Positions 3,500 to 62,428 of a stretch of 64,000 bases of DNA are shown here, one piece after another. The position numbers were made by a program, and so were the translations under genes. Every line of letters starts with the position of its first letter. Positions within the stretch are counted from its first letter, which is position 1. Source of the DNA: a virus; IMG/VR virus record IMGVR_UViG_3300015263_000599, positions 30,453 to 94,452 of that record, one strand, 5' to 3'. The notes below the pieces were generated by a model, which worked only from the letters and a program-made list of their open reading frames with translations, did no database searches and was not told the DNA's origin.

Positions 3500-4030
3500 A
3501 TGGACAAAACACTGATCATCATGCGGGGACTCCCGTGGACCGGGAAATCCTATCGAGCAAAAGAACTGGCAGGCGACGACGGACTGATTTTCAGTACCGA
3601 TGACTATTGGTACGAAGTCAATAAACCGGACAAGCCCGACGAATACTCCTTCAACCCCCGGTTTTTGGGAGCCGCACACAAATGGAACATCCTGCGAGCA
3701 CAGCGGGCAATCGACATTGCCACTCCGCTCATTATCATTGACAATACGAATACCACGGCATCGGAGCCTCAGCCCTACGTCCAGTATGCTGACTGGCAGG
3801 AATACAAAATTTGTATTGAGGAGCCGACCAGTGAACGGTGGCAAGAGATTGCACAACTGCTCACCCGGAAACGTGACAACAAGAAGGAACTCAAGCAGTG
3901 GGCCGAAAAGCTCGCTGAAGGAAGCAAGGAAACCCACAAAGTTCCAGCGTGGGCAATCGAACGAATGATGTGGCGGTGGCAATGTGGCCTTACCGTCGAA
4001 CAAATTCTGGAATCCAAACCACCTCAGTAA
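3500..4030 (+). CDS. P-loop kinase of the polynucleotide-kinase/AAA_33 type
   Basis: A 176-residue single-domain kinase. Walker A is GLPWTGKS (residues 10-17); FSTDDYW supplies the acidic residues typical of T4 polynucleotide kinase-like and N4BP2-like enzymes, and IIIDNTNTT is the hallmark strand of that group. A basic lid region RKRDNKKELKQWAEKL follows. It stands alone, without the phosphatase domain found in the enzyme encoded at 15.2 kb. Phosphorylation of RNA/DNA 5' ends or of a small nucleoside is likely; the substrate cannot be told. Confidence 0.8.
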   Translation: MDKTLIIMRGLPWTGKSYRAKELAGDDGLIFSTDDYWYEVNKPDKPDEYSFNPRFLGAAHKWNILRAQRAIDIATPLIIIDNTNTTASEPQPYVQYADWQEYKICIEEPTSERWQEIAQLLTRKRDNKKELKQWAEKLAEGSKETHKVPAWAIERMMWRWQCGLTVEQILESKPPQ

Positions 4031-4047
4031 ACCAAGGGAGGGAAGTC

Positions 4048-5910
4048 ATGAAGCGACTAACATCCGTTGTCGCAATGCTCGTCGCATTGTTCTGCGTGGG
4101 CAATGCCCAAGCACAACAGCAAACCGCCAAGGGCCTCATCGGTGATGTGGCTGTTGGGCCACCGCCGACAACCACAGGGGAAGTCAACGTCCCGATCATT
4201 CTGTGGGGCGGCGAAGCTGCAACTTTCTGGGCCAATGGTGGAGTTTCAACAACCAACGACTCCATCTATGGTCAGTCCGGTCTCAAGATCAAGTTGACGC
4301 CGGGCGACGATTCCATTCAACAGGCGAGGGACTACATCAGCGGCAAGTCGCCAATGTATCGTGGCACCTATCGCATGGCGTGTCTCTTCGCCGAGCAATT
4401 CAACGCCGATGCTCGCACGAAACCCGTGATGATCATGCAACTCAGCTACAGTCTGGGCGATCACATGGTTGCCGTTGAACAGATCAAGACGTTGAACGAT
4501 TTGCTCAAGCCGCTCAATGGGAAGAAGGTGCGTGTCGCTCTGCAACAAGGCGGGCCGCACTTGGGACTCGTTGAAGACTCACTGAAGTCAGTTGGCGGCA
4601 AGTGGTCAGACATCGAAGTTGTCTGGACGAAGAACCTCACAGGGGATGACAGCCCGGCTGCTGCGTTGCGAGAAGGCAAATGCGATGTGGCTTGTGTTGT
4701 CACGCCTGACATGATCGGCCTTTGCTCTGGCATCGACCAGAAAGGTTCTGGTGCTGAAGGTACTGTCAAGGGATCGCATGTCGTTAACTCGACAGCCACG
4801 ATGAGCCGCTCGATTGCCGACGTGTACCTTGTCCGCAAGGACTTCTTTGATGCCAACAAGGAGTGGGTGCAGAAATTCGTCACCGGCTACTTGAAGGCAA
4901 CCGAAGCTGTCGTCACGGCTCGCAAGGATTACAGCGAGAGCAAGAAGGTTCCTCAGTACACAACCGTCATGACTCAGATGCAGACGTTCTTTGGAGCGGA
5001 AGCTCTGCCGACGATTGAAGAAGATGTTCACGGATTGATTCTGGACTGTGCCTTCGCACGCATCCCCGGCAACGAAGTCTTCTTCAACGACTCCAACAAT
5101 CTGACCGGCTTCGCTGCCAAGCAGACTTCTGGTTTGCAACTCGCCGTCGATCTCGGGTACTCGACTCAGAAGTTGGGATTCGAGACTGCTGGGTGGGATT
5201 ACAAGGCAATCTCAGAAGCGGCTGGCGTGAAGTACGTCAAACCCGTCTATGCGACAGGCCGTATTCGAGCCGAGGTTGCGGACTTTGGGAACGACTTGGA
5301 TAGCTCGACGATTTTCTCGTTCGAGATCAACTTCCAGCCTGAACAGACGACGTTCTCGCTGGAGACATACGCTTCCGACTTCAAGCGGTTCTGTGAAGCA
5401 CAGGCCACTTACGGAAACGCAGCCATCATCATCGAAGGCCACTCCGACCCTACGCTGGCACTCCAGCACTTCTATTGGTCGGCTCGGGCGGCAGGTTTGT
5501 TGACTGGCGACAACGGCCAGTACAAATTCAACGGACAACCTCTATCGCTGACGGAAACGTCTGCCATCATCAATGCCATCCAGAACACCAATCTGGCAGG
5601 TCAGAGACGTGTGGATAGTGATGGCAAGACGGTAGAAATTCCTGATCCGAAGACAACCGTTGCGGCGGCTCTGACACTTTCTCAATCACGAGCGACTTCT
5701 GTGAAGAAAGCGATTGAGGAGTTCGCCAAGAACAGTGGCTACCAAATTGACCTGTCGGCAGTGTTGCCGCACGGCGTCGGCATTGCTCAGCCCATCAACG
5801 CTCGTCCTCGAAACATGGCTCAGGCCAAGGAAAACATGCGAGTGGTTTTCCGAGTGGTTCGTGTCAAGGCTGAAGCTCTGTCCGAAGATGACTTCAACTT
5901 CGACAAATAA
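4048..5910 (+). CDS. Periplasmic NMT1-type substrate-binding protein fused to an OmpA domain
   Basis: A 620-residue exported protein. A signal peptide (MKRLTSVVAMLVALFCVGNAQA) is followed by a binding-protein fold of the NitT/TauT (NMT1/THI5-like) ABC-transporter class to about residue 400, then an OmpA/MotB-like peptidoglycan-binding domain at about 415-610 (IIIEGHSDPT, LSQSRATSVKKAIEEF). GGGAGGGAAG before the ATG at 4048 decides the start; upstream in-frame codons overlap the previous gene. The fusion suggests a binding protein tethered to the cell wall rather than a free carrier. Two related binding proteins, a permease and an ATPase follow in the same block. Confidence 0.85.
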   Translation: MKRLTSVVAMLVALFCVGNAQAQQQTAKGLIGDVAVGPPPTTTGEVNVPIILWGGEAATFWANGGVSTTNDSIYGQSGLKIKLTPGDDSIQQARDYISGKSPMYRGTYRMACLFAEQFNADARTKPVMIMQLSYSLGDHMVAVEQIKTLNDLLKPLNGKKVRVALQQGGPHLGLVEDSLKSVGGKWSDIEVVWTKNLTGDDSPAAALREGKCDVACVVTPDMIGLCSGIDQKGSGAEGTVKGSHVVNSTATMSRSIADVYLVRKDFFDANKEWVQKFVTGYLKATEAVVTARKDYSESKKVPQYTTVMTQMQTFFGAEALPTIEEDVHGLILDCAFARIPGNEVFFNDSNNLTGFAAKQTSGLQLAVDLGYSTQKLGFETAGWDYKAISEAAGVKYVKPVYATGRIRAEVADFGNDLDSSTIFSFEINFQPEQTTFSLETYASDFKRFCEAQATYGNAAIIIEGHSDPTLALQHFYWSARAAGLLTGDNGQYKFNGQPLSLTETSAIINAIQNTNLAGQRRVDSDGKTVEIPDPKTTVAAALTLSQSRATSVKKAIEEFAKNSGYQIDLSAVLPHGVGIAQPINARPRNMAQAKENMRVVFRVVRVKAEALSEDDFNFDK

Positions 5911-5916
5911 TCATTC

Positions 5917-5967
5917 CTGTCCCCGTGCCGCAGTCACCCGCACGATTAGCTGCGGCACGGAGGACAG
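5917..5967 (+). promoter_or_regulatory. Long stem-loop between two genes of the envelope module
   Basis: CTGTCCCCGTGCCGCAG (5917-5933) pairs with CTGCGGCACGGAGGACAG (5950-5967), 17 pairs with one bulge and a 16-nt loop. No T-run follows and the next gene's AGGAG lies just beyond, so it looks like an mRNA processing or stability element that sets the level of the downstream genes rather than a terminator. Confidence 0.6.
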
Positions 5968-5982
5968 TTTCAGGAGACCCAC

Positions 5983-6390
5983 ATGGCAACTTCAACCAAA
6001 CCTATGATCCCCACCAAAGTCAAGCTGATTGGCGGCGGCATTCTGCTGGTCTTGCTGATCGGCTTGGGATATATCAAACTCGGCAACGTCACCTATTCAG
6101 AGGGCGAGCGGTCGGGCGTCATCACCAAGTTTTCCCACAAAGGGATGATGGTCAAAACGTGGGAAGGCGAACTGAACATGGGCGGCTTCGATCAAGGTGG
6201 AGTCGCAAGCGTGTGGCAGTTCAGTGTTGATGACCCTGAAGTTGTCACAAAGCTTCAAGAAGCTCAACGGGCCGGTGGTCGATGGACCCTGCATTACCGC
6301 CAACAGTTCATGGCTCAATCATGGAAGGGACAAACCGACTATTTCGTCATCGGGGTTGAACCCGCTGGCAATAACCCGAACCAACGCTAA
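5983..6390 (+). CDS. Small membrane-anchored protein of a conserved uncharacterised family
   Basis: A 135-residue protein with one transmembrane segment (about residues 15-32) and a soluble tail containing YSEGERSGVITKFSHKG, KTWEGELNMGG and WKGQTDYFVIGV. I recall this pattern from a widespread bacterial family that databases often mislabel as 6-phosphogluconate dehydrogenase; nothing here looks like that enzyme. It sits between a cell-wall-bound binding protein and a vWA protein, so an envelope role is likely. Confidence 0.7.
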   Translation: MATSTKPMIPTKVKLIGGGILLVLLIGLGYIKLGNVTYSEGERSGVITKFSHKGMMVKTWEGELNMGGFDQGGVASVWQFSVDDPEVVTKLQEAQRAGGRWTLHYRQQFMAQSWKGQTDYFVIGVEPAGNNPNQR

Positions 6391-6405
6391 GGAAGGGAGT
6401 TCGAC

Positions 6406-7335
6406 ATGAGAAGTCTGATCCTCGCCGCCTTGGTGGTTTTAACTACCAGCGTGGCTCAAGCTCAGCAAACCGATTCAATCGTCATCGTGCTCGACACCTC
6501 GGGTTCGATGGGCGATTCAATGAGTGGTGGCAAGACTCGAATGCAGGTGGCTCAGGATTCACTGATCACCGTGTTGAAGAATACGCCACCCACTACAAAA
6601 GTTGGAATCCTCACCTTCGAGGGGTGGATTTATGATCTCCAGAAGGTCAACCAGCAACAACTTGAAGCGGCGATCCGAAGCACACGACCGGGCGGCGGAA
6701 CACCGTTGTATGAGTACCTTCGAGCGGGCGCAACCCGGTTGCTTGAAGAGCGACAGTCGCAGAATAACACCGGTTACTACAAGTTGATTGTCGTCACCGA
6801 TGGACAGGCTGGTGATGATAGCCTGAACCGTGAGAGTCGGTTCTCAGATGGATCGACAAAGCCCGGCGTTCTGACAGACATCATCAGCCGCAATCTGATC
6901 GTGGATGTCATTGCACTCGACATGGGCGAAGACCATGACCTGATGAGGCTGAACAACGGTGCCGACATGAAGGGGAACGACCCTGCCAGTCTCACTTCAT
7001 CGATCCGTAAGGCCGTCGCTGAGGTTGGTTTCGGCAACCAGAAAGACACGTCCGAATCTGCCTTCAAGGAATTGGACGGACTGCCTGACGATTTCTGTCT
7101 GGCTGCCATCAAAGGACTGACGACATTCCGCAATCATCCGATTGGAGAGAAGCCGCCAGTTCCGATTGTGCAAGCAGATGGAACAGTGACGATGCAGCCC
7201 GATCCTGCCAACGAAGCTGTTCCACCGCCCGGAGAGGGTGGGGGAATCGGAGGCATCCTTTTGATTGTCCTTGTCGCAGGGGTAGGAATTGTCTTCTTCC
7301 TTGTGATCCTCACCAAAGCAGGCCGGGGGTACTAA
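6406..7335 (+). CDS. Membrane-anchored von Willebrand factor A (vWA) domain protein
   Basis: A 309-residue exported protein: signal peptide at residues 1-19, then a vWA domain starting SIVIVLDTSGSMGDS with an intact metal-ion-dependent adhesion motif (DxSxS), a conserved GGGTPLYEYL region and VTDGQAGDD. A proline-rich linker leads to a C-terminal transmembrane helix (about 282-303). The topology puts the vWA domain in the periplasm. In bacteria such proteins assemble or regulate partner complexes through metal-bridged contacts; the neighbours (binding proteins, PspA-like protein) are the obvious candidates. Confidence 0.85.
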   Translation: MRSLILAALVVLTTSVAQAQQTDSIVIVLDTSGSMGDSMSGGKTRMQVAQDSLITVLKNTPPTTKVGILTFEGWIYDLQKVNQQQLEAAIRSTRPGGGTPLYEYLRAGATRLLEERQSQNNTGYYKLIVVTDGQAGDDSLNRESRFSDGSTKPGVLTDIISRNLIVDVIALDMGEDHDLMRLNNGADMKGNDPASLTSSIRKAVAEVGFGNQKDTSESAFKELDGLPDDFCLAAIKGLTTFRNHPIGEKPPVPIVQADGTVTMQPDPANEAVPPPGEGGGIGGILLIVLVAGVGIVFFLVILTKAGRGY

Positions 7336-7338
7336 ACC

Positions 7339-8895
7339 ATGAGCGATGACACGACGATGACGAAAGCACGCATCGTGGCAATGGCGATGATCTGGTTTTT
7401 CATCCTCGGTATCGTCGTGGTGGCGTGGAAGTTCTGGTGGGCTCCTCGACAGCAGGAGATTGCTCAGAACGAACAGGAGCAGCACGAGCAAGAAGTGCTG
7501 GACAGAACCAGTTCACAAAGCCGCTACAAGTACGAACTCAACTGGGCGATGGACGGGTTTTCCGGCTACGCCCCGTTCCGAAGCCAGATGTTTCGTGATG
7601 AGATGGGTCGCTTCGGCGGCAAAGTCAACATCATTGATGACAAGGCCAACTACACCGAACGTCTGGGCAACCTCCAGAGCGGCAAGGTGGACATGGCTGT
7701 CTTTACCATCGACGCCCTTTACAAAGCATCCGCAGAGTTGGGAGACATCCCGGCCACGATTGTCGATTTCATCGATGAGACCAAGGGCGCAGATGCCATG
7801 GTCGGGCCGGGAGGATTATTCCCCAACATTGACTCCCTCAACGATCCTGATTTGAAGATTGTTTGCACTCCCGATTCGCCATCGGAGACGCTGGCACGGG
7901 TGGTGATGGCATACTTCAACCTGACCCACATCTCGGACAAGAACTTCGAGTTCGTTGATGGGGCAGCAGCGGTGTTCGACGCATACAAGAATTCGAAACC
8001 CACAGACAAGAAAGTCTTCGTGTTGTGGGAACCTTACGTCAGCCGCATTGTGTCCAACCCTGACTACCATGTCATTGTGGACTCATCGAAATTCCGTGGC
8101 TACATCGTCGATGTCATTGTGGTCAACAGAGACTTTCTGGTGAAGCACGAAGACATGGTGACGGAAGCCGTTAAGGCATATCGAACAACGATCTTCAACA
8201 ACCGTCGTTCGCCCGACATGGTTGCATTGGTGCAAGCAGATGCTCAACAAATTGGTGAGCCGGTGACTCAGGATCAGGCTGTGAAGTTGGTTGGAAACAT
8301 TTGGTGGAAGAACACACAAGAGAGTTTCGGCCACTTCGGTTTGACCAGCGGCACAGGGCTGCAACACATCGAGGATATCTGCAACAACATTGCTCGTGTG
8401 CTGGTGCGAACTGGTGCCATCCAAAGTGATCCGACAGGTGGGCAACCCAACAAGTTGTACTACGATGGCATCATGCGGAAGTTGTTCGACTCATCATGGC
8501 ATCCCGGATTCGCTCAAGAGACGGTGCGGAAAGAGAAGACTCTTGCCGTGCTGTCGGACGACGAATGGAAAGCCTTGAAGCCAGTCGGAACCTTACAAGT
8601 TCCACGACTGGTGTTTGCCAGAGGAACGGAACGCCTCTCAGATCGCAGCTTTGCGACACTCGACGAACTGGCAAACAAGCTGGAGTCGTGGCCGCAATAC
8701 TACTTGGTTGTGAGAGGCAACGTGTCTTCCGAAGGAGATGTGGATGCCAACCGCCAGTTGGCCCAATCTCGTGCAGATGCTACTATCGAGTATCTGGTTG
8801 GGAAGGGCGTGGCCCGACAGCGAATCCATGCTGAAACCAGTCATCCCAACGGTTCTTCTACAGTGGCCTTCATTCTGGGCGAAGTGCCGTACTAG
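7339..8895 (+). CDS. Membrane-anchored NMT1-type substrate-binding protein fused to an OmpA domain
   Basis: A 518-residue paralogue of the protein at 4.0 kb. Instead of a cleavable signal it has an N-terminal transmembrane anchor (about residues 12-30). A NitT/TauT-type binding fold follows (FSGYAPFRSQMFRDEM, KVDMAVFTIDAL, VFVLWEPYV), and an OmpA-like domain occupies about 420-518 (RLVFARGTERLSDRSF, NRQLAQSRADATIEYLVGKGV). It starts 3 nt after the vWA gene's stop. The doubling of the OmpA fusion within one operon argues for a structural, cell-wall-linked assembly. Confidence 0.85.
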   Translation: MSDDTTMTKARIVAMAMIWFFILGIVVVAWKFWWAPRQQEIAQNEQEQHEQEVLDRTSSQSRYKYELNWAMDGFSGYAPFRSQMFRDEMGRFGGKVNIIDDKANYTERLGNLQSGKVDMAVFTIDALYKASAELGDIPATIVDFIDETKGADAMVGPGGLFPNIDSLNDPDLKIVCTPDSPSETLARVVMAYFNLTHISDKNFEFVDGAAAVFDAYKNSKPTDKKVFVLWEPYVSRIVSNPDYHVIVDSSKFRGYIVDVIVVNRDFLVKHEDMVTEAVKAYRTTIFNNRRSPDMVALVQADAQQIGEPVTQDQAVKLVGNIWWKNTQESFGHFGLTSGTGLQHIEDICNNIARVLVRTGAIQSDPTGGQPNKLYYDGIMRKLFDSSWHPGFAQETVRKEKTLAVLSDDEWKALKPVGTLQVPRLVFARGTERLSDRSFATLDELANKLESWPQYYLVVRGNVSSEGDVDANRQLAQSRADATIEYLVGKGVARQRIHAETSHPNGSSTVAFILGEVPY

Positions 8896-8912
8896 GAGTT
8901 TGGGGATGTTCA

Positions 8913-9650
8913 ATGAGCAAAGATTTACGCAAGCAGATTCTACTCGACCTGTTTATCACGCCAGCGACGGTGATCCCATTCCTGATCGGAGGGACGCTGT
9001 TGATGCTGTCGGCGATACTGGGCGGGTACTCGGCATTCCTTGGGTTTGTCGGGATTCTCCTGTCTTTTGGAGCTTTGTTGACTAACTGGGTATTCAACCT
9101 CGGAAAGATCAGCCGCAACGCCGTGAAGCGGTTGCACCAACAGGAGAAACAACAACGAGAAGCGGAACTAGATGCCCTCGATGCAAAACTCGTAACGAAT
9201 AAAGATCCACGGGATCAAACGGCTCTGCGAAATCTGCGAGCTTTATACAACTCGTTCTGTGACGATTTGCATGACGGCAAGGTCACTCGCAATGTGCCTC
9301 CAAAGCTGTTGCAGTTGATCGAAGAAATTTTCGGCGAGTGTGTGACCAATCTGAGTCGTGCATGGGACATCTGGAACACCTCTCGCAGCCTTCAAGGCGA
9401 TCTCAAAGAGAAGCTCTTGGAGCAGCGAGAAAACCTGATCGTAGAAGTTGAGAGCAGTGTCCACATCTTGGCAGAAACGATCAACGAAGTTCGGGCGTTG
9501 AAGCTGAAGACTGATGCGGGTGAAATGGAGCGTTTGAGGCAGAAACTTGTGTCTCAATTGCAGGTCGCTAAAGCGACAGAAGAAAGCGTGGCGTCACTCG
9601 ACGCAGAACTCAACTCGAAGAGTTACGACGAGTACGCCGATTACAAATGA
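8913..9650 (+). CDS. Membrane protein with cytoplasmic coiled coil
   Basis: A 245-residue protein: two closely spaced transmembrane helices (about 18-38 and 41-62) followed by a long charged, mostly helical region with heptad-like character (residues 75-240). No family recognised. Between an envelope binding protein and a PspA-like protein, it could be the membrane receptor for the latter, by analogy with PspB/PspC; that is inference only. Confidence 0.65.
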   Translation: MSKDLRKQILLDLFITPATVIPFLIGGTLLMLSAILGGYSAFLGFVGILLSFGALLTNWVFNLGKISRNAVKRLHQQEKQQREAELDALDAKLVTNKDPRDQTALRNLRALYNSFCDDLHDGKVTRNVPPKLLQLIEEIFGECVTNLSRAWDIWNTSRSLQGDLKEKLLEQRENLIVEVESSVHILAETINEVRALKLKTDAGEMERLRQKLVSQLQVAKATEESVASLDAELNSKSYDEYADYK

Positions 9651-9657
9651 GTTGACC

Positions 9658-9685
9658 TTTACAGGCCAGTCTCGATCCCTACAAT
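9658..9685 (+). promoter_or_regulatory. Promoter before the PspA-like gene
   Basis: TTTACA (9658-9663) and TACAAT (9680-9685) with a 16-nt spacer in the 74-nt gap before the PspA-like gene; a second entry point into the module, matching the -10 variant TACAAT seen at 11955, 25510 and 36513. Confidence 0.55.
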
Positions 9686-9724
9686 GGATCGGATGGCATC
9701 GCACGACAAAAGGAGATTGCGACG

Positions 9725-10516
9725 ATGGGACGATACTTCAAAGCCCTCTGGTACATGTTGACCGGGCGATTCAGTGCAGCAGCCGACGCACTGCAAAGCA
9801 ACAAGTATGTGATGGCGGCGACCTACGACAAGTCGATTGAGAAAGGTGCGGATCGTTTCAATACGGTGAAAGACGCCGTAGCGAAGCTGATGAGCATCGA
9901 GCAAGATCGGGTGGCTACCATCAAGACGCTCTCGGGGGATGTCGAGAGTCTGACGAAGAAGATGAATGGCGCACAAGTCGCCATGCAGAAGCGAATCAAC
10001 GCTCTCAAAGCCGAGGGCAAGACCAAGGAACAAATCGAGGCCGATGCCGAGTTCATCAAGCATCGTGGGGCCTTCATGGATATGAAGTCCACGATTGCTG
10101 AGAAGGATGCCCGGATCGGCGAACTCGAAGAAGACCTGAAGAACCGTCGCCAGCAGATCGCCACCTACAAGGCAGAACTGCAACAGATGCAACGTCAGCA
10201 AGCTTCTCTCAAAGAAGAGAAACACGAAGCTCTGGCCGACGTGGCGATTGCCGAACAGGCAGAAGCCATCAACTCTGTGCTGGCCGGTATCTCAGAAGAC
10301 ACTACAGACAAGGATTTGCAAGCAGCACGAGAAGCTCGTAAGGCAGCCAAAGCCAAAGCGGCAATCACCTCCGAACTGGCAGGTAACGATGCACGGCTGG
10401 CCGAGAACGAGTACCTTCAGTATGCTGCTGAATCTGAAGCTGACAGCGAGCTTGATGATCTGCTCGACTGGGGCGAGAGCGATTCGGAAATGAAGGATGT
10501 GCAAATCCCCGAGTAA
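9725..10516 (+). CDS. PspA/IM30-like coiled-coil protein
   Basis: A 263-residue almost entirely helical protein starting with an amphipathic segment (GRYFKALWYMLTGRFSAAADAL), then long coiled coils and an acidic tail, as in phage-shock-protein-A/ESCRT-III-like proteins that coat and repair the inner membrane. Length is slightly above E. coli PspA (about 222). It does not carry enough canonical PspA signatures for certainty; another coiled-coil membrane scaffold is possible. The neighbouring two-helix membrane protein and ABC genes fit a membrane-stress role. GGAG precedes the ATG by 9 nt. Confidence 0.65.
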   Translation: MGRYFKALWYMLTGRFSAAADALQSNKYVMAATYDKSIEKGADRFNTVKDAVAKLMSIEQDRVATIKTLSGDVESLTKKMNGAQVAMQKRINALKAEGKTKEQIEADAEFIKHRGAFMDMKSTIAEKDARIGELEEDLKNRRQQIATYKAELQQMQRQQASLKEEKHEALADVAIAEQAEAINSVLAGISEDTTDKDLQAAREARKAAKAKAAITSELAGNDARLAENEYLQYAAESEADSELDDLLDWGESDSEMKDVQIPE

Positions 10517-10580
10517 CTCAAGCCCAATCGACACGACCGGATGTTCCGGTCGAAACATCACCTACAAGGAGTGAAGGACA

Positions 10581-11705
10581 ATGAAGCGAATTGCAATTTT
10601 TGGAATGTTGCTCGCTGTGACAACCCTCATCGGTTGCGGCGGCAACGACGGTGGCGATGCTGCCCCCGACAACAGCGGAGAACAGGCCAGCGGCCAAACC
10701 GGACAAACCAGCAACGACAGCTATCCAGCGTTTGTCCACACAGCGTCAGAGTATCCCTCGTGGTCAACCTTCATGGTGGCCGCAAAAGCAGGGCTCATCA
10801 ATCCCGAGCAGGGCGGTCAGCACGGCACTCTGGAAACCAAGTACGGCGTCGATGTCGTGCTTCAGGTGAAGGACTACGATCCGTGCATCACCCTCTATGC
10901 CAACGGCACCTGTGATTCAACGTGTATCACCAACATGGATGCCCTGAATCCCGCCATGGGACGCAAGACAACGATCATCATGCCGACCAGCACCTCAGCC
11001 GGTGCCGACAAGGTGATTGCTGTGGGCGCAACATCCATTGACGATCTGAAGGGATTGACCACCTACGGTCTGGCGAAGAGTGTCAGCCAATACTGCTTTG
11101 TGCGAGGTTTGCAGACGCAAGGTCTCAATCCGGCTGATTTCCAGTTCAAGAATCTCGATCCTGCCCCGGCTGCTACTGCTTTGCAGACTGGCAGCGGCGA
11201 CGTGAAGGCGATCTCTGTCTGGAATCCGTTTGCCCTTCAGACTCTCCGCACCAACAAGGACGCCAAGGAAATCTTCTCGTCCACGACGATCCCAGAAGAG
11301 ATCATCGACTGCGTGGTGATCGGCAATGATTCGTTGGAGAAGCCCAAGGGCAAGGAGTATGCTGCCTGCCTTTGCGAAATCTTCTATGAAGTCAACAAGC
11401 GTCTGAACTCTTCGGACAGCAGTGTCTCTGACGCCACACTGACGGCGTTGGGCGAAGACTTCTCGAAGCTACCTCTCGAAGACATGCGAATCGTCGTGCA
11501 GGAAACTCGATTCTACGGAACGCCTGCTGCCGGTATCGCTCTGTTCGAGAATCAGAAGTTCCAGACGCAGACCATGCCCACTGTGATCACGACATGCCAG
11601 CAGATCGGCGTGCTCGAAGAAGGACAGCAGCCTACTGTCGGCTTCAATGACGACAGCAAGCAACTCAACTTCACGACGGAGTTCATGCGTCAGGCATCTC
11701 AGTAA
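10581..11705 (+). CDS. NMT1-type substrate-binding lipoprotein
   Basis: A 374-residue protein with a lipoprotein signal (lipobox LIGC at about residues 17-20) and a Gly/Ser/Gln linker before a NitT/TauT-type binding domain (SYPAFVHTASEYPSWSTFMVA, DALNPAMGRKTTIIMPTST, FQFKNLDPAPAATALQTG, ISVWNPFALQTL). Unlike the two paralogues upstream it has no OmpA domain, so it resembles a conventional binding protein for the permease and ATPase encoded just downstream. Ligand unknown. Its stop codon abuts the composite tRNA structure directly. Confidence 0.85.
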   Translation: MKRIAIFGMLLAVTTLIGCGGNDGGDAAPDNSGEQASGQTGQTSNDSYPAFVHTASEYPSWSTFMVAAKAGLINPEQGGQHGTLETKYGVDVVLQVKDYDPCITLYANGTCDSTCITNMDALNPAMGRKTTIIMPTSTSAGADKVIAVGATSIDDLKGLTTYGLAKSVSQYCFVRGLQTQGLNPADFQFKNLDPAPAATALQTGSGDVKAISVWNPFALQTLRTNKDAKEIFSSTTIPEEIIDCVVIGNDSLEKPKGKEYAACLCEIFYEVNKRLNSSDSSVSDATLTALGEDFSKLPLEDMRIVVQETRFYGTPAAGIALFENQKFQTQTMPTVITTCQQIGVLEEGQQPTVGFNDDSKQLNFTTEFMRQASQ

Positions 11706-11887
11706 GGGCCAATAGCTCAGCGGTAGAGCACTCGTTGATTTCGTGGAGTATGCGTGACCGAGCTTGGTAAGGTGCGTGATTCTTCACGGTACGGACTTAA
11801 AAAGCCGTGGGAAGTTCGAATCTTCTCGCCAATGCTGTGCGAAATCGATGAGAAGGGGGTGGGTTCGAGCCTCACCTTGGTCCACCA
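11706..11887 (+). tRNA. Composite tRNA: outer tRNA whose anticodon arm is extended by an inserted tRNA-like domain
   Basis: Outer halves: acceptor strand GGGCCAA (11706-11712) pairs with TTGGTCC (11877-11883), followed by A and an encoded CCA (11885-11887). A D arm GCTC-AGCGGTA-GAGC (11715-11729) and a T arm with TTCGAGC loop (11864-11870) are both normal. In place of a 7-nt anticodon loop, CTCGTTGATTTCG (11731-11743) pairs with CGAAATCGATGAG (11840-11852), 13 pairs, and this helix runs on into a second tRNA-like fold. No anticodon for the outer tRNA can be read. The gene begins immediately after the stop of the lipoprotein gene. Confidence 0.6.
11748..11835 (+). tRNA. Inner tRNA-like domain nested in the composite tRNA
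   Basis: Inside the outer anticodon arm lie a D arm (ACC/GGT around GAGCTTGGTAA, 11757-11773), a hairpin CGTGA-TTCT-TCACG (11775-11788), a hairpin ACGG/CCGT with a 10-nt loop containing CTTAAAA (11791-11808) and a T arm with TTCGAAT loop (11809-11827). The two strands GAGTATGCG and CGCCAATGC form an imperfect acceptor stem with bulges. The first hairpin has too small a loop for a normal anticodon; the second contains UAA in the context usual for tRNA-Leu(UAA), but in the variable-arm position. It may be a degenerate class II tRNA. Confidence 0.4.
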
Positions 11888-11894
11888 AACACCA

Positions 11895-11929
11895 AGCCCG
11901 TCCGTCCCAAGCGACGGGCGGGCTTTTTT
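11895..11929 (+). terminator. Rho-independent terminator after the composite tRNA
   Basis: AGCCCGTCCGTC (11895-11906) pairs over 12 bp with GACGGGCGGGCT (11913-11924) around a 6-nt loop, followed by six T. It ends the transcript 8 nt after the encoded CCA. Confidence 0.9.
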
Positions 11930-11931
11930 GC

Positions 11932-11960
11932 TAAACCCCTCTCCAAATTATCCTTACAAT
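11932..11960 (+). promoter_or_regulatory. Promoter for the ABC permease/ATPase pair
   Basis: TACAAT at 11955-11960 lies 17 nt after a weak -35 (TAAACC, 11932-11937), just past the terminator and 31 nt before the permease ATG. The -10 matches other promoters in the window; the -35 is poor. Confidence 0.45.
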
Positions 11961-11991
11961 GCTGATGACCTCATAACGAAGGAAACCGGAT

Positions 11992-12939
11992 ATGTTGGGC
12001 GGCTTACTCGCAGGGATTGTTCTCATCCTTTTGGGATGGCTGCTCGTTGTGTTCAGCGGTTCTGGACGGATCAAGCAACATCTTACGACTCGCAGCAAAA
12101 TCATTTGGGGAGTCGCAGGTGTCTCTGTGCTGGCTGTGACCTATAGCTGGCTCTCTTTTCGCCAACACGAACGCAACCCCGACGACACCACGATTCCGAC
12201 ATTCAGTCAGTTGGCACATGGGTTCATGCGAACCGTCACGCCATCTTCCGACGACAAAGAGAACGCTTTACGAGTGGCCTTCGGCCAACCCACGCAAGAG
12301 AAAACTTTCTGGCAGAAAGTTCAATCGACTTGGCTCTATCAAGACTCTGTGGCGACTTATGGTCGTCTCATCAAAGGTCTAGTGTGGGGCTGCATGTTGT
12401 CCATTGTTCTCGGCACACTCATGGGATGCTACGAGTGGCTAGGGAGTTTCCTGTTGCCTCCGCTTGCTCTGCTTGCCAAGACGCCGGGGACAGCCATGCT
12501 GGCCGTCTTCTTTGTGATCGTCGGCACTGGCGAGCCAATGTTCATTACGATGATTGGCTTCGGGGTTCTCCCGACGCTGACACAAACGATCTACTTGGCG
12601 GCGAAGGACGATCTTCATAGAGAGCAGATCGATAAGGCATATACGCTCGGTGCGGACAACACTGAACTTGTATGCAATGTCGTGTTTCCTCAGATACTTC
12701 CGAAGGTGATCGACAGCGTGCGATTGCAAATCGGGCCAGCTATGGTATTCTTGATTGCCGCCGAAATGTTGGTCGGCGATGTCGGCATGGGATACCAAAT
12801 CCGAATGCAGCAAAGGCTGCAACAGATGAACATCGTTTACAACTACTTGTTCTTGCTAGGGATCACCGGTCTGCTTATGGATCAAGCCATGATTCGTCTG
12901 CGGCAATGGTTGTGCCCGTGGTTCGACATCAAAAGGTAG
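11992..12939 (+). CDS. ABC transporter permease, NitT/TauT (SsuC/TauC) type
   Basis: A 315-residue inner-membrane protein with an N-terminal pair of hydrophobic segments and a BPD_transp_1-type core of about five helices. The coupling loop is visible as DKAYTLGADNTELVCNVVFPQILPKVIDSVR (EAA-like motif contacting the ATPase; shown here in part). It is somewhat longer than SsuC because of the extra N-terminal region. It partners with the ATPase gene 3 nt downstream and probably with the binding proteins upstream. Substrates of relatives are nitrate, sulfonates or thiamine precursors; the real one is unknown. Confidence 0.88.
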   Translation: MLGGLLAGIVLILLGWLLVVFSGSGRIKQHLTTRSKIIWGVAGVSVLAVTYSWLSFRQHERNPDDTTIPTFSQLAHGFMRTVTPSSDDKENALRVAFGQPTQEKTFWQKVQSTWLYQDSVATYGRLIKGLVWGCMLSIVLGTLMGCYEWLGSFLLPPLALLAKTPGTAMLAVFFVIVGTGEPMFITMIGFGVLPTLTQTIYLAAKDDLHREQIDKAYTLGADNTELVCNVVFPQILPKVIDSVRLQIGPAMVFLIAAEMLVGDVGMGYQIRMQQRLQQMNIVYNYLFLLGITGLLMDQAMIRLRQWLCPWFDIKR

Positions 12940-12942
12940 GTC

Positions 12943-13905
12943 ATGTCGGTGAACAACATAGCGTTAAACATCAAAGGTGTCAGTCAGTGGTTCGGCGATA
13001 ACCGTGTGCTGTACGACATCAATCTGAAAATCGTGCAAGGTCAGTTCGTCGCACTCGTAGGAGAAAGCGGATGCGGAAAGAGCACTTTGCTTCGTGCCAT
13101 TCTCGGGACTCTCCCGCCCAAGGAAGGCACCATCGAAACTGACGGAATTCCCGTCACTGGCCCCAACCACAACGTCGGCGTCGTCTACCAGCATTACGAC
13201 TTGTATGATTGGATGACAGCCGAGAAGAACGTCGCCTTCGGCCCCATGCTGCATCAGACCAGCATTTGGAATCGCACGTTCGGGTTCTTGAAATGGATGA
13301 AGTTGCGAAAGCAACACTTGGCGCAAGCGAGGGACATGCTGACTCGCTTCCGACTTGGCAACGCATATGATCGCTATCCTGCCGAGCTTTCGGGCGGGAT
13401 GCAACAGCGGGTGGCGATTGCCCAAGCCCTCATCATGAAGCCGAAGATTTTGCTTCTTGACGAGCCCTTTGGGGCTTTGGATGAGGCGACCAGAGAGGAA
13501 CTGCAAGGGGTTCTTCTCATGCTCTATGCCGAAAACATGGAAGCTCGCAAGCGTGGTGAGATGCCGCCGTGGACGGTGATGATCATCACACATGAGCTTG
13601 ATGAAGCCTTCTATGTGTCTGATCGAGTGATAGGACTCTCTCGACAGTGGTATGAAGACACCGACACGGGCCGCAAGGAAGGCAAGGCGTGCGGTGCAAC
13701 TAAAGTCTGGGACAAATCCGCTCCCGTTTATCACCCTGACGATGAGCGTGACTTCAGCAGGTTCCACGATGCCAAGCTGGAGTTGCGAAGCAAGGTGATC
13801 AAAGCGGAGGCTCCCATGGAACGATCCGAACATGTCTCATTTTGGTCCGACCTAGAAAACGGAGTCGGATCAGGAGTCGCATTCACAAGGAGTCCTCATG
13901 TCTGA
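12943..13905 (+). CDS. ABC transporter ATPase, NitT/TauT type
   Basis: A 320-residue nucleotide-binding subunit. Walker A GESGCGKST (residues 40-48), Q-loop around VVYQHYDLYDW, signature LSGGMQQR near residue 148, Walker B ILLLDEPFGALDE near 168 and the switch His in IITHELDEAF are all intact, so it should be an active ATPase. A C-terminal extension of about 80 residues beyond the core has no recognised fold. It follows the permease by 3 nt and overlaps the CinA-like gene by 8 nt. Confidence 0.93.
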   Translation: MSVNNIALNIKGVSQWFGDNRVLYDINLKIVQGQFVALVGESGCGKSTLLRAILGTLPPKEGTIETDGIPVTGPNHNVGVVYQHYDLYDWMTAEKNVAFGPMLHQTSIWNRTFGFLKWMKLRKQHLAQARDMLTRFRLGNAYDRYPAELSGGMQQRVAIAQALIMKPKILLLDEPFGALDEATREELQGVLLMLYAENMEARKRGEMPPWTVMIITHELDEAFYVSDRVIGLSRQWYEDTDTGRKEGKACGATKVWDKSAPVYHPDDERDFSRFHDAKLELRSKVIKAEAPMERSEHVSFWSDLENGVGSGVAFTRSPHV

Positions 13906-14846: not shown

Positions 14847-15162
14847 GCAACGCAAACCCTTCACGCCCAAGCAGGCGGAAGACAAGAAGATCGAGGTCAT
14901 TCCCCCTCAAGTCATCGAGGCTTTCGAGGAACTGATCGTCGAGAATCTCAGAGGCGGCACCGCCACCATCAAACAAGATGATGTGGTCAATCGGATTCAC
15001 GAGAAGATGACAGGCGTGAAGACCCAAGAGATGTTCGACAAAGGATGGCTGGATGTCGAAGATCTCTTTCGCAAGGCTGGGTGGGAGGTCGAGTATGACA
15101 AACCCGGTTTCAATGAATCGTACCCGGCCACCTTCACCTTCTCGAAAAAGAGGAAACGATGA
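14839..15162 (+). CDS. Uncharacterised 107-residue protein
   Basis: Charged, mainly helical protein with a basic C-terminus (KKRKR) and no recognised family. The middle (IKQDDVVNRIHEKM, FDKGWLDVEDLFRKAGWEVEYDKPGF) reads like a small winged-helix-type fold, but this is only an impression. It overlaps the genes on both sides by 4-8 nt, so it is translated as part of this operon and precedes the end-healing enzyme directly. Confidence 0.65.
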   Translation: MTEQRKPFTPKQAEDKKIEVIPPQVIEAFEELIVENLRGGTATIKQDDVVNRIHEKMTGVKTQEMFDKGWLDVEDLFRKAGWEVEYDKPGFNESYPATFTFSKKRKR

Positions 15163-16130
15163 GTAAGGAAATCGCAATCGTCATCGGCTACAATGCTGCC
15201 GGGAAAAGTACACTCGTGCGAGAGTTCGAGCAGGACGGATATCATCGAATCAATCGTGACCTAACGGGCGGGACCATCGAGGCGCAGGTCGAGCTTGCTC
15301 GCAAAGCGTTAACGACCCATGACAGGGTTGTATTGGACAACACCTACCCCACGATTGAGAGTCGTGAGTCAATCGTGGCCCTCGGCCAACAAATGGGAAT
15401 TCCCGTTCGCTGCGTTTGGCTCACGACATCTTTTGAAGACGCCCAACTCAATGCTTGTCTTCGCATGATGGAGCAGAGAGATCAGCTTCTCATGCCAGAG
15501 GATTTCAAGAAAGAGAAGAGTCCCAATCTCTTCCCGCCTGTCGCCCTCTTCACCTACAAGAACAAGTTCGAGAACAAGAAGGGCGAGCAGAAGCATCCCG
15601 GCAAGCAAGACCCCAAGAAAGAACACGGGTTCTTTGTGGTCGAAAAACGCCCGTTCGTTCGCCAGTGGCCTGCGGAGTTCTGCAACAAGGCTTTGTTGCT
15701 CGACTACGACGATACGTTAAGGCGAAGCAAGGGCGATAAGAACTGGCCCGAGAAACCAGAAGATGTGGAGATCCTTCCGAACCGCAAAGAGGTTCTGGAC
15801 GAGTATGTGGCTAATGGATGGAGGTTGCTGGGCGTCAGCAATCAGTCGGCCATTGCCAAGGGTCTTAAACGAGAAGACGCCGTTGCGTGCTTCGAGCGGA
15901 CCAACGAACTTCTGGGGCACGACATCGAATACATGTTCTGTCCTCATCAAGTGCCGCCTGTGAATTGCTACTGTCGCAAACCACATCCGGGGATGGGAGC
16001 ACACTTCATCTGGAAGTATAAGTTGCTGCCGAGTGCTTGTATTATGGTCGGCGACCAAACTTCTGACAAAACATTTGCGTCCCGATGCGGATTCGTGTAT
16101 AAAGAAGCCGAAGAGTTCTTCGCTCTTTAA
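15159..16130 (+). CDS. Bifunctional polynucleotide 5'-kinase / 3'-phosphatase
   Basis: A 323-residue end-healing enzyme with the same domain order as T4 Pnkp. N-terminal kinase: Walker A GYNAAGKST (residues 10-18) and VLDNTYPTIESR near 58. C-terminal HAD phosphatase: LLLDYDDTL with the nucleophile Asp near residue 180, GVSNQSAI, and the late CRKPHPG and MVGDQTSDK motifs. It would phosphorylate 5'-OH ends and remove 3' or 2',3' phosphates to prepare RNA for a ligase such as the one at 27.8 kb. The region between the domains carries many Lys/Glu residues. Confidence 0.9.
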   Translation: MSKEIAIVIGYNAAGKSTLVREFEQDGYHRINRDLTGGTIEAQVELARKALTTHDRVVLDNTYPTIESRESIVALGQQMGIPVRCVWLTTSFEDAQLNACLRMMEQRDQLLMPEDFKKEKSPNLFPPVALFTYKNKFENKKGEQKHPGKQDPKKEHGFFVVEKRPFVRQWPAEFCNKALLLDYDDTLRRSKGDKNWPEKPEDVEILPNRKEVLDEYVANGWRLLGVSNQSAIAKGLKREDAVACFERTNELLGHDIEYMFCPHQVPPVNCYCRKPHPGMGAHFIWKYKLLPSACIMVGDQTSDKTFASRCGFVYKEAEEFFAL

Positions 16131-27462: not shown

Positions 27463-27856
27463 CTTGAAGGTCGCATTTGGGATGGGGATGATGGTAGCCG
27501 TTTTCCTCAAGGCTTTCTTCTCCATCGCCTTCGGGACGGGTTTTGCGCCGATGCTGGTGGCTCTGAATGGAATAGGATTCATCATCGGATTGTTTCTTGC
27601 GGTGTGGGGAACCAGCGGGTCACGCTATCTCGGGCAAGTTGCCGCCGCATCGCTCATGGCCCCGGTGTCCGCACTGTGGGCTCTTTACGTTTTCCAACAT
27701 TACCCTTTGGGTATTCGGGACAAGGTGGACGGCCTGACGTATGCTTGGGTCCATCTGCAAGTTCATCGGGACTTGTACATTTTTCCGATCCTCATGTTCT
27801 CAGGAGCCTTATTGCTCGCTGCTTGGAAGCCAAAGTCAAATGAAACGGTTCAGTGA
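27440..27856 (+). CDS. Polytopic membrane protein (138 residues)
   Basis: About four transmembrane helices (roughly 9-30, 37-55, 65-85, 110-131) with short loops; no recognised family. It overlaps the lipoprotein gene by 23 nt and the RNA ligase gene by 17 nt. Holin-like function is conceivable for a small polytopic phage protein but nothing specific supports it. Confidence 0.65.
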   Translation: MSQFKTRDLKVAFGMGMMVAVFLKAFFSIAFGTGFAPMLVALNGIGFIIGLFLAVWGTSGSRYLGQVAAASLMAPVSALWALYVFQHYPLGIRDKVDGLTYAWVHLQVHRDLYIFPILMFSGALLLAAWKPKSNETVQ

Positions 27857-28547
27857 TCAAAAACGAGTTCTGCCAGCGTTCCCCCGAACGCCGCATCTTC
27901 CGTGGAGCCAAAACACAGAAGATGACGATCTCATTGCGGAACAAGCTGAACTTCAACCGTTGTTCGATAATCCGGTCAACGTCGAAGAGAAAATCGATGG
28001 TGCCAGCGTTGGTATGACATTCTGGCAAGGCCACCCCCTCATTCGTAACCGTGACCACATACTTCGTAAGGGGTATGTGAAAGACACACCGGCGAAGAAG
28101 CAATTCGCCCCCATCTGGAACTGGTTCTACGATAACCAGAAAAAGTTTGAGTACATTCTGAGCCATGGGCCGCTTAGTGTGTATGGGGAGTGGATGGTCG
28201 CTCGCCACGGCATCTACTATGACCGGCTTCCAGATTTGTTCATCGCCTACGATGTGTACAACTACGAGGCCGACTACTTCCTCTCGCCAACCATCGCTCG
28301 TCCAATGCTCGAAGAGTGCGGCTTCGCCATCCCTCGCCTGTTTCATCAAGGCGACCCCCTTCCCTCGGAACTTCCCGACTGGATCAACTCACAAGGGCAG
28401 TGGTGCGATAGCGTCGTAGAAGGTCTGTACTTCAAGGTTCACAATGGCGAACGAATCACTCACCGATTCAAACAAGTGAGTGATCAGTTTGTGCGTGGGC
28501 AGTTTTGGGACGGAAAGACGTTGCTCAAGAACGGAGTCGCCAAATGA
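27840..28547 (+). CDS. ATP-dependent RNA ligase
   Basis: A 235-residue nucleotidyltransferase-fold ligase. Motif I is VEEKIDGASVG with Lys51 as the adenylated residue; GEWMVARHGIYYDRLPDLFIAYDVYN is the motif III/IIIa block seen in small RNA ligases, and VVEGLYFKVHNGERITHRFKQV holds motifs IV and V. Only the catalytic domain is present. It seals 5'-phosphate/3'-OH ends of the kind produced by the kinase/phosphatase at 15.2 kb, so the two form a repair pair like T4 Pnkp and Rnl1. Confidence 0.88.
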   Translation: MKRFSDQKRVLPAFPRTPHLPWSQNTEDDDLIAEQAELQPLFDNPVNVEEKIDGASVGMTFWQGHPLIRNRDHILRKGYVKDTPAKKQFAPIWNWFYDNQKKFEYILSHGPLSVYGEWMVARHGIYYDRLPDLFIAYDVYNYEADYFLSPTIARPMLEECGFAIPRLFHQGDPLPSELPDWINSQGQWCDSVVEGLYFKVHNGERITHRFKQVSDQFVRGQFWDGKTLLKNGVAK

Positions 28548-61427: not shown

Positions 61428-61933
61428 GTTTTCTCCAACACGCACAAACGGTCCCGTTCAGAAATTTGCAAAGAGAATCGGTCGGCGATGGTCTTTGCTA
61501 ATCTCATCTCAGGCTCTCGATTTGTGTCATCGATGACAAAGATTGTGTGAGGGTGTGCAAGTGTGTCAAGGTGACTCAGAATCCCTTCTCGGCCAATGTG
61601 TCCCGGAGGACCATCAATGAAGATTAAGTCCTTGGGGCCATCAGGCTCCCAGTTGTACCACAAGGGCCTGCCATACAAACTGCGATGAAACAGTTGGACA
61701 TTGGGAAGATCTCTGGTCAGCACCCGCTTGTAGGAATCTTCATGATTCTCTAAGGCAATGTGTTGACAAGGCAGTGTGCCGAACAACCACGTTGAGAGGC
61801 CGCTCCCTGTTTCAAGGGTTCGGAATCCCGGACGCACGAGTTCGGCAAGGCAGTTCCAGCATTGTTGGGTGATTACCCAACCGTTGGTCCCGCTGATCTG
61901 GACCCACTGTGCCAAAGTCTCTTGATAACTCAC
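61424..61933 (-). CDS. Class I methyltransferase-like protein
   Basis: A 169-residue Rossmann protein of the methyltransferase-24 type: FRTLETGSGLSTWLF is the SAM-binding motif I, IALENHEDSYKRV motif II, and DLIFIDGPPGHIGREG the later Asp-bearing strand. Starts at GTG 3 nt after the metallopeptidase stop. Homologues modify sugars or small molecules; substrate unknown. Confidence 0.78.
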   Translation of the reverse strand: MSYQETLAQWVQISGTNGWVITQQCWNCLAELVRPGFRTLETGSGLSTWLFGTLPCQHIALENHEDSYKRVLTRDLPNVQLFHRSLYGRPLWYNWEPDGPKDLIFIDGPPGHIGREGILSHLDTLAHPHTIFVIDDTNREPEMRLAKTIADRFSLQISERDRLCVLEKT

Positions 61934-61936
61934 ACT

Positions 61937-62428
61937 CTAGTTATCGTTGCCGCTGGCATTCTGCTTGAGTGCAGCGTCAACAAATGCTTGTATGTCATCA
62001 CGCCAGAGGCCGTGTCGCCGCACGACGCAGGAGAATTCCTCAAGATCGTGGGGTCTCAAGGACAGTTTGACGACATCTTCGCTTCCATCTGTCTCTTCGT
62101 CCTGCTGAGCCTCGGCCCACGCATGACAAAGCTCGTGATCGACCAGTGCGACCTTAGACTTAGGAGGCAAAACCTCCCACACAGGTTCGCTGATTGTGAT
62201 CACAAAAAATGGATCGGAGCCATCTTGTCCGTTCGCCAGAAAGGCGTTGAGATTGGAGATCTTGCGACAAGTTCCCCAAACTTCACGGCCTTTGGCCTTG
62301 GGCGTCTTGTCGATGAAGACGTACTCGATTCGCACGTCGAAGTCGATGAGGTGTTGGTGGTATTTGGGAATCAGATCTTCAGCGATCTGTTTCACTTCCG
62401 GGGCTGGGGTGTAAATTGCTGTCGCCAT
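61937..62428 (-). CDS. Phage-type putative metallopeptidase
   Basis: A 163-residue protein with a zincin-like helix ALVDHELCHAWAEA (HExxH form, His-Glu-Leu-Cys-His) preceded by an edge strand PFFVITISEPVWEVL; LRPHDLEEFSCVVRRHGLW offers a third ligand. This matches the small putative phage metallopeptidase family. GGGAG lies 8-9 nt before the ATG. It might free ubiquitin-like or host proteins from conjugates as related JAB-independent zincins do, but the target is unknown. Confidence 0.78.
   Translation of the reverse strand: MATAIYTPAPEVKQIAEDLIPKYHQHLIDFDVRIEYVFIDKTPKAKGREVWGTCRKISNLNAFLANGQDGSDPFFVITISEPVWEVLPPKSKVALVDHELCHAWAEAQQDEETDGSEDVVKLSLRPHDLEEFSCVVRRHGLWRDDIQAFVDAALKQNASGNDN

Follow-up and report, generated by a model that had tools for sequence, protein, structure and literature searches.

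The window analysed here, a stretch of 64,000 nt corresponding to bases 30453-94452 of a 94,452-base IMG/VR virus record, contains a 182-nt RNA gene (11706-11887) in which a tRNA-like domain is inserted into the anticodon arm of a tRNA body (Table 1). The contig encodes homologues of UvsX, DnaB, single-strand-binding protein, UvsW, DNA polymerase, sigma factor, polynucleotide kinase (15159-16130) and RNA ligase (27741-28547), and this set marks it as part of a large phage; the kinase and ligase also have homologues in related phages. The upstream gene, which has planctomycete and verrucomicrobial homologues, ends in a stop codon that directly abuts the 5' end of the RNA. The initial annotation had described a discrete unit set between this stop codon and a strong terminator, and that position is confirmed. 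No promoter-like site was found on the plus strand between 10400 and 12100. The surrounding region (3949-13905) is a planctomycete-type operon carried by several related huge phages, coding for substrate-binding proteins (some with OmpA-like parts), a VWA protein, a PspA-like protein, an ABC permease and an ATPase. The RNA is the sole tRNA-like gene detected on the 94-kb contig, where ARAGORN (with and without introns) and a search with the Rfam tRNA model found no second tRNA gene.

Table 1. Coordinates in the window of the nested RNA and its flanking features (P, pair probability)
Feature	Position	Strand	Evidence
Upstream gene, ABC substrate-binding lipoprotein	10581-11705	+	ORF; homologue 48% identical in LR756511
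Outer acceptor stem, 5' strand GGGCCAA	11706-11712	+	pairs with 11877-11883; first five pairs P 1.00; G3·U70 wobble
Outer D arm GCTC-AGCGGTA-GAGC	11715-11729	+	P 0.99
Extended anticodon helix, 5' strand	11731-11745	+	15 contiguous pairs with 11838-11852
Inner acceptor-like stem, 5' side AGUAU + GCG	11747-11754	+	AGUAU pairs with 11832-11836, P 0.82-1.00; GCG/CGC 8-14%
Inner D-like arm ACC-GAGCTTGGTAA-GGT	11757-11773	+	sequence; part of Rfam tRNA match; stem 8% in ensemble
Inner hairpin GTGA-TTCT-TCAC, 4-nt loop, at the place of the anticodon arm	11776-11787	+	P 0.94-0.98
Inner hairpin ACGG-A-CTT-AAA-AAG-CCGT, variable-arm-like	11791-11808	+	P about 0.25-0.6
Inner T arm GGGAAG-TTCGAAT-CTTCTC, 6-bp stem	11809-11827	+	P 0.74-0.94; Rfam tRNA match
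Extended anticodon helix, 3' strand	11838-11852	+	pairs with 11731-11745
Outer T arm GGTGGG-TTCGAGC-CTCACC, 6-bp stem	11858-11876	+	outer four pairs P 0.94-0.96; inner two read from sequence
Outer acceptor 3' strand TTGGTCC, A73 and CCA	11877-11887	+	sequence; A73 and CCA at 11884-11887
Intrinsic terminator	11894-11931	+	stem 11894-11925, 13 pairs, plus T run

Structure of the nested RNA

The outer tRNA landmarks (acceptor, D arm, T arm and encoded CCA) are borne out, and the coordinates originally given for the RNA are correct: the acceptor is paired at 7 of 7 positions with one G·U, and U8-A9 and A26 are also present. By sequence, the acceptor and T stems together comprise 13 bp (7 + 6), compared with the 12-bp stack of a canonical elongator tRNA. 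The stretch around the outer D arm shows a 94% match to cyanophage tRNA-Val genes, and comparison of the outer halves with known isotypes gave no clear isotype. The anticodon arm had been described as a 13-bp helix; it is indeed continuous, but its length is 15 contiguous pairs (P 0.93-1.00, four of the 15 being G·U), followed by a G·G mismatch and five further pairs that lead into the second domain. Given the first five pairs of the anticodon stem, shuffled sequences reached eight or more further pairs at a frequency of only 8.6e-4, so that a chance origin of the extended helix is unlikely.

The second domain had been read as a D-like arm, two hairpins and a T arm. Its derivation from a tRNA stands: the Rfam tRNA model matches 11748-11834 with 21.9 bits, a score short of the family cut-off of 29 (E = 0.035 when corrected for 4227 families, with 401 bases searched), and U8, G9, A14, G15, G18, G19 and A21 are all at their canonical places. 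Two of its stems are less sound: the D stem is weak in the ensemble because another hairpin competes with it, and the acceptor is broken into 3 bp, a 2-nt bulge and 5 bp, partly of low probability. The inner domain contains neither a 7-nt anticodon loop nor CCA. A class I reading, in which the second hairpin would be a Leu(UAA)-like anticodon arm, leaves almost no variable loop and was not preferred. No group I intron was matched in Rfam at E values up to 5, the only matches being tRNA and two weak sRNA matches.

The minimum free energy (MFE) of the whole 182-nt RNA is -72.2 kcal/mol (z = -3.4), and none of 200 shuffled sequences was equally stable. The MFE fold is consistent with an outer cloverleaf and an extended arm, as the initial annotation had proposed, and also supports the likeness it drew to a scaffold, i.e., a tRNA body with an insert in the anticodon arm. 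ARAGORN made no call in the region by default and one call when introns were allowed. In the latter mode there was a single call with an insert of up to 150 nt in 30 x 64 kb (1.9 Mb) of shuffled sequence, and no call with a comparable insert among 80 bacterial loci. The nested tRNA-like architecture at this locus is thus confirmed.

Distribution among related phages

Phage relatives were found when aligned proteins from two or three phages served as queries; neither the substrate-binding protein nor the permease detected them as a single query. The relatives are L180/L181, L182-L184, the 436-kb phage G022 and the 595-kb phage LR756511. In L180/L181, UvsW is 71% identical and the same ABC operon is present at 55-66% identity. 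This operon is also present in many Planctomycetota and Verrucomicrobiota, and because it is widespread in these phyla a host of planctomycete or verrucomicrobial type may be inferred; the phage probably infects planctomycetes.

In all three syntenic relatives examined at this locus (L180, G022 and LR756511) the junction after the substrate-binding gene carries a terminator and no tRNA-like RNA, the entire RNA being absent rather than present as a degraded copy. Because the three share the junction without the RNA, we regard the RNA as a lineage-specific insertion. It was not found elsewhere in about 40 huge-phage records searched whole, and no relatives in IMG/VR matched exact DNA patterns drawn from its outer 5' and 3' portions. 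A distant blastn search of INPHARED gave no match over most of the RNA, the best-supported matches being to ordinary tRNA D arms. Since no homologue was found, nothing shows that the RNA is maintained by selection.

Decoding and charging

None of eight possible closures on the CTCGT/ATGAG stem yields a spliced 7-nt anticodon loop with U33. The bulge-helix-bulge motif of archaeal-type tRNA introns is absent at the borders, where the 15-bp helix is uninterrupted, and ARAGORN -m detected no tmRNA with a tag frame on the contig. We found no decoding route for either the outer or the inner domain, and the lack of a U33 splice product together with the 13-bp acceptor/T stack argues that the RNA is not used in elongation. 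Two roles suggested earlier are affected by these results. As a precursor releasing an inner tRNA the RNA finds no support, for the inner part has no 7-nt anticodon loop and no CCA and its acceptor is broken. As an intron-like element it keeps the kinship, in that the tRNA introns of Lak megaphages hold tRNA-like structures (see below), and loses the splicing, as no U33 loop is restored. The mimic or decoy suggested alongside them may still apply.

The main alanine identity elements recognized by alanyl-tRNA synthetase (AlaRS) are G3·U70 and A73. Both are present in the outer acceptor next to CCA, and because of them charging by AlaRS is predicted to be possible; the nested RNA is a plausible AlaRS substrate, although G3·U70 could be there by chance.

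Interrupted tRNA genes in other huge phages

The tRNA-inside-tRNA kind is already known from giant phages and was published in 2019, when Devoto et al. (PMC6784885) described tRNA introns in Lak megaphages, one of which, in tRNA-Thr(TGT), may encode a tRNA. We examined three Lak records (MK250015, MK250020 and MK250029) and located two nested tRNA genes in Lak-A1. By comparison with an intron-free allele in Lak-C1, whose anticodon loop is CTTGTAA, a 114-nt insert lies exactly between positions 36 and 37 of the Lak-A1 tRNA-Thr(TGT). In both Lak inner tRNA-like domains the acceptor is 7 bp and the T stem 6 bp long, and a normal anticodon loop is lacking. The other Lak-A1 insert (L350 22004-22168, minus strand) is 97% identical to one in an unrelated outer tRNA of Lak-B1 (L353 107-322), the inner anticodon arm being about 50 nt longer in Lak-B. 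Because the same insert sits in two unrelated outer tRNAs, the Lak tRNA-like intron is evidently mobile.

Interrupted tRNAs are frequent in related huge phages. In a sample of 374 ARAGORN calls from them, 28 had inserts of 5-150 nt, some of them in the variable arm or D loop, and the commonest insert length was 21 nt (six cases). In tRNAs of several huge phages, hairpins of 21 or 22 nt in the anticodon loop leave a normal 7-nt loop with U33 upon removal, and their positions vary (31/32, 34/35 and 35/36); they are located at L055 21137-21230 (minus), L187 7345-7452, L205 198-301 (minus), L170 8777-8873, L304 13184-13278 and L313 16755-16850.

LR756511.1 (L050 and L056; about 287999-291371, minus strand) carries about a dozen examples of an element of roughly 55 nt, within and between tRNAs, with the consensus ACTTGGAC-hairpin-GTCCCC-N10-14-AGC[A/T]TACAAAC; one example lies between the D and anticodon arms of tRNA-Arg(TCG) (L056 40258-40133, minus). 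No Rfam family was found for this element, which has the look of a tRNA intron family not yet described. By eye, the element (ACTTGGAC..GTCCCC..TACAAAC) is absent from the nested RNA. The same genome contains an apparently circularly permuted tRNA-Lys(TTT) (L050 about 700-830, minus), in which the T arm and acceptor 3' strand come before the 5' half; on its flanks are TTGACTGTCT/AGACAGTCAA as well as the two halves of the 55-nt element in exchanged positions. Nearby (L050 about 300-560, minus), CTGACGGTCATAAGGTAGCGAG follows a copy of the element and, on visual inspection, is similar to a conserved stretch of 23S rRNA, which Rfam did not report. Inserts of 50-60 nt in tRNAs of phages G036 and G041 (L304 4872-4971, 6212-6337 and 14780-14905; L305 14759-14889; L310 11889-12016) have the form ATTTGTCC-TTCG-GGAATG..GGGATTACAT or a variant ending in TTGGAACTACAT, and possibly belong to the same family.

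Two further arrangements were seen. In a family of phage tRNA clusters (L004, L010, L017, L020, L021, L022 and L028) a tRNA with a D-loop hairpin insert lies between separate D-arm and T-arm halves, the outer acceptor halves of these clusters being unpaired. Near position 1500 of L357 (G032 about 61830-61990) there is a tandem tRNA-like dimer, in which a single acceptor stem (TTTAATT/AATTAAA) surrounds two D arms and a pair of T arms. These tRNA interruptions in related huge phages are apparently undescribed.

Possible origin and role

We tentatively propose that the RNA is tRNA-derived, a phage tRNA whose anticodon arm has received a tRNA-like insertion element of the megaphage kind, and that, when active, it is most likely a stable tRNA-like RNA that does not decode and may be alanylated. 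The transcript would arise as the tail of the ABC-transporter operon, RNase P would generate its 5' end immediately behind the stop codon, and the mature 3' end would be formed by the encoded CCA; the outer acceptor may then be alanylated and the molecule would be excluded from elongation. The proposal is favoured by the fold and its significance, the inner Rfam match, the clean junctions in L180, LR756511 and G022 and the lack of a U33 product, and, on the Lak side, by the interrupted Lak-A1 tRNA versus the intact Lak-C1 tRNA, the 6-bp T stems and the mobility of the element. It is weakened by signs of the sort seen when a gene decays, namely the break in the inner acceptor and the low probability of the inner D stem, and by the long helix and absent 5' leader, which are unlike Lak introns.

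Nearly as likely, if itself rather doubtful, is a relic, i.e., a phage tRNA that took in a tRNA-like intron or second tRNA, lost splicing or decoding, and now drifts without function. Occurrence in a single lineage, the damaged inner acceptor and D stem and the lack of a usable anticodon agree with decay, and casualties are expected in phages whose relatives hold at least 60 tRNAs with frequent rearrangements. In a long-decayed gene, however, breaks would be expected, whereas here the acceptor is paired throughout, the D and T arms and CCA are intact, the 15-bp helix is free of mismatches and the fold keeps its low z score. It is unlikely, though conceivable, that the RNA is an alanylated, elongation-excluded double tRNA-like molecule, a two-storey scaffold that came from a mobile intron and was reused as a decoy, aminoacyl donor or regulator.

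A functional intron is a distinctly improbable explanation. An endonuclease would excise the inner domain, and the phage PNK/phosphatase and RNA ligase would seal the halves into a working tRNA; the phage and its relatives do encode such kinase and ligase homologues, anticodon-arm inserts of related phages leave normal loops once removed, and Lak-C1 carries an exact intron-free allele of the Lak tRNA. Yet all eight loop closures lack U33, the strands of the 15-bp helix would pair again into a hairpin once the insert was removed, and the 13-bp acceptor/T stack is not elongator-like. Little more can be said for a decoy that ties up a host enzyme or a defence nuclease that cuts tRNAs, which we consider improbable as well: phage tRNAs are known to counter tRNA-targeting defences (PMC10264068, PMC11555353), and the RNA offers two tRNA-like elbows and an anticodon helix with no loop to cut, but the targets of anticodon nucleases are anticodon loops, which it does not have. 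A precursor releasing a functional inner tRNA is very improbable, since the domain that scores as a tRNA in Rfam has a 4-nt hairpin loop, no CCA and a broken acceptor. Equally hard to credit is a chance fold in which one or both domains have no tRNA ancestry: the inner score does lie under the gathering cut-off, but the family-corrected E value was obtained in only 401 bases, the outer D-arm region matches real phage tRNAs, and shuffles rarely reproduce the helix.

Comparison with known systems

Engineered tRNA scaffolds carry an insert in the anticodon arm, and their topology of an intact body with a prolonged anticodon stem is like that of the nested RNA, which differs in being natural and in having an insert that is itself tRNA-like. 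In tmRNA an alanine-type acceptor (G3·U70, A73, CCA) is combined with a long helix that replaces the anticodon stem. The nested RNA shares both features but has a D stem and received no tmRNA call from ARAGORN, and because that search did not recognize it we consider it to have no tag frame.

The closest structural analogue in a related phage is the lone tRNA-like RNA of G022 (255207-255333; L172 17607-17733), in which the anticodon arm has 5 + 8 bp and a domain with the T-loop-like GGTTCGATTCC. Unlike the nested RNA, it has 12 bp in acceptor plus T stem, a C·A mismatch at 3:70, no CCA and no full inner domain.

A 2026 survey of 262 jumbo phage genomes with alternative codes (PMC13037316) reported tRNA introns said to encode another tRNA; set beside the nested RNA by their description, they represent the same general phenomenon in phages with reassigned stop codons.

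The Lak introns resemble the nested RNA in that a tRNA-like domain is inserted in the anticodon arm of a huge-phage tRNA, that the inner T arm has a 6-bp stem and a consensus-type T loop (GGGAAG/CTTCTC here, CTGAAG/CTTCAG in Lak), and that the inner anticodon hairpin lacks a 7-nt loop (GTGA-TTCT-TCAC here, AATTGG/CCAATT in Lak). They differ in several respects: the Lak outer tRNAs give a normal U33 loop after removal of the insert, compared with none of eight closures here; the Lak inner acceptor is an intact 7-bp stem, while that of the nested RNA is broken; in Lak a leader of some 30 nt precedes the inner acceptor and the 15-bp anticodon helix is lacking, whereas here such a helix reaches the inner acceptor after one mismatch; and the Lak tRNAs lie among other tRNAs, whereas this RNA stands alone and encodes CCA. 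On account of the splice product, inner acceptor and leader, we do not file it as a Lak-type member.

Why megaphages have tRNA introns that resemble tRNAs is unexplained, and the known examples come from Lak-type phages and from jumbo phages with alternative codes; a stand-alone non-decoding version in another phage group suggests a wider spread and an escape from the intron role. It opens to experiment the questions of tRNA splicing by phage kinase and ligase enzymes and of roles outside decoding for some phage tRNAs. The nested RNA is a divergent, free-standing, non-decoding variant of this kind, and would be either a relic or a tRNA-like RNA that has been exapted.
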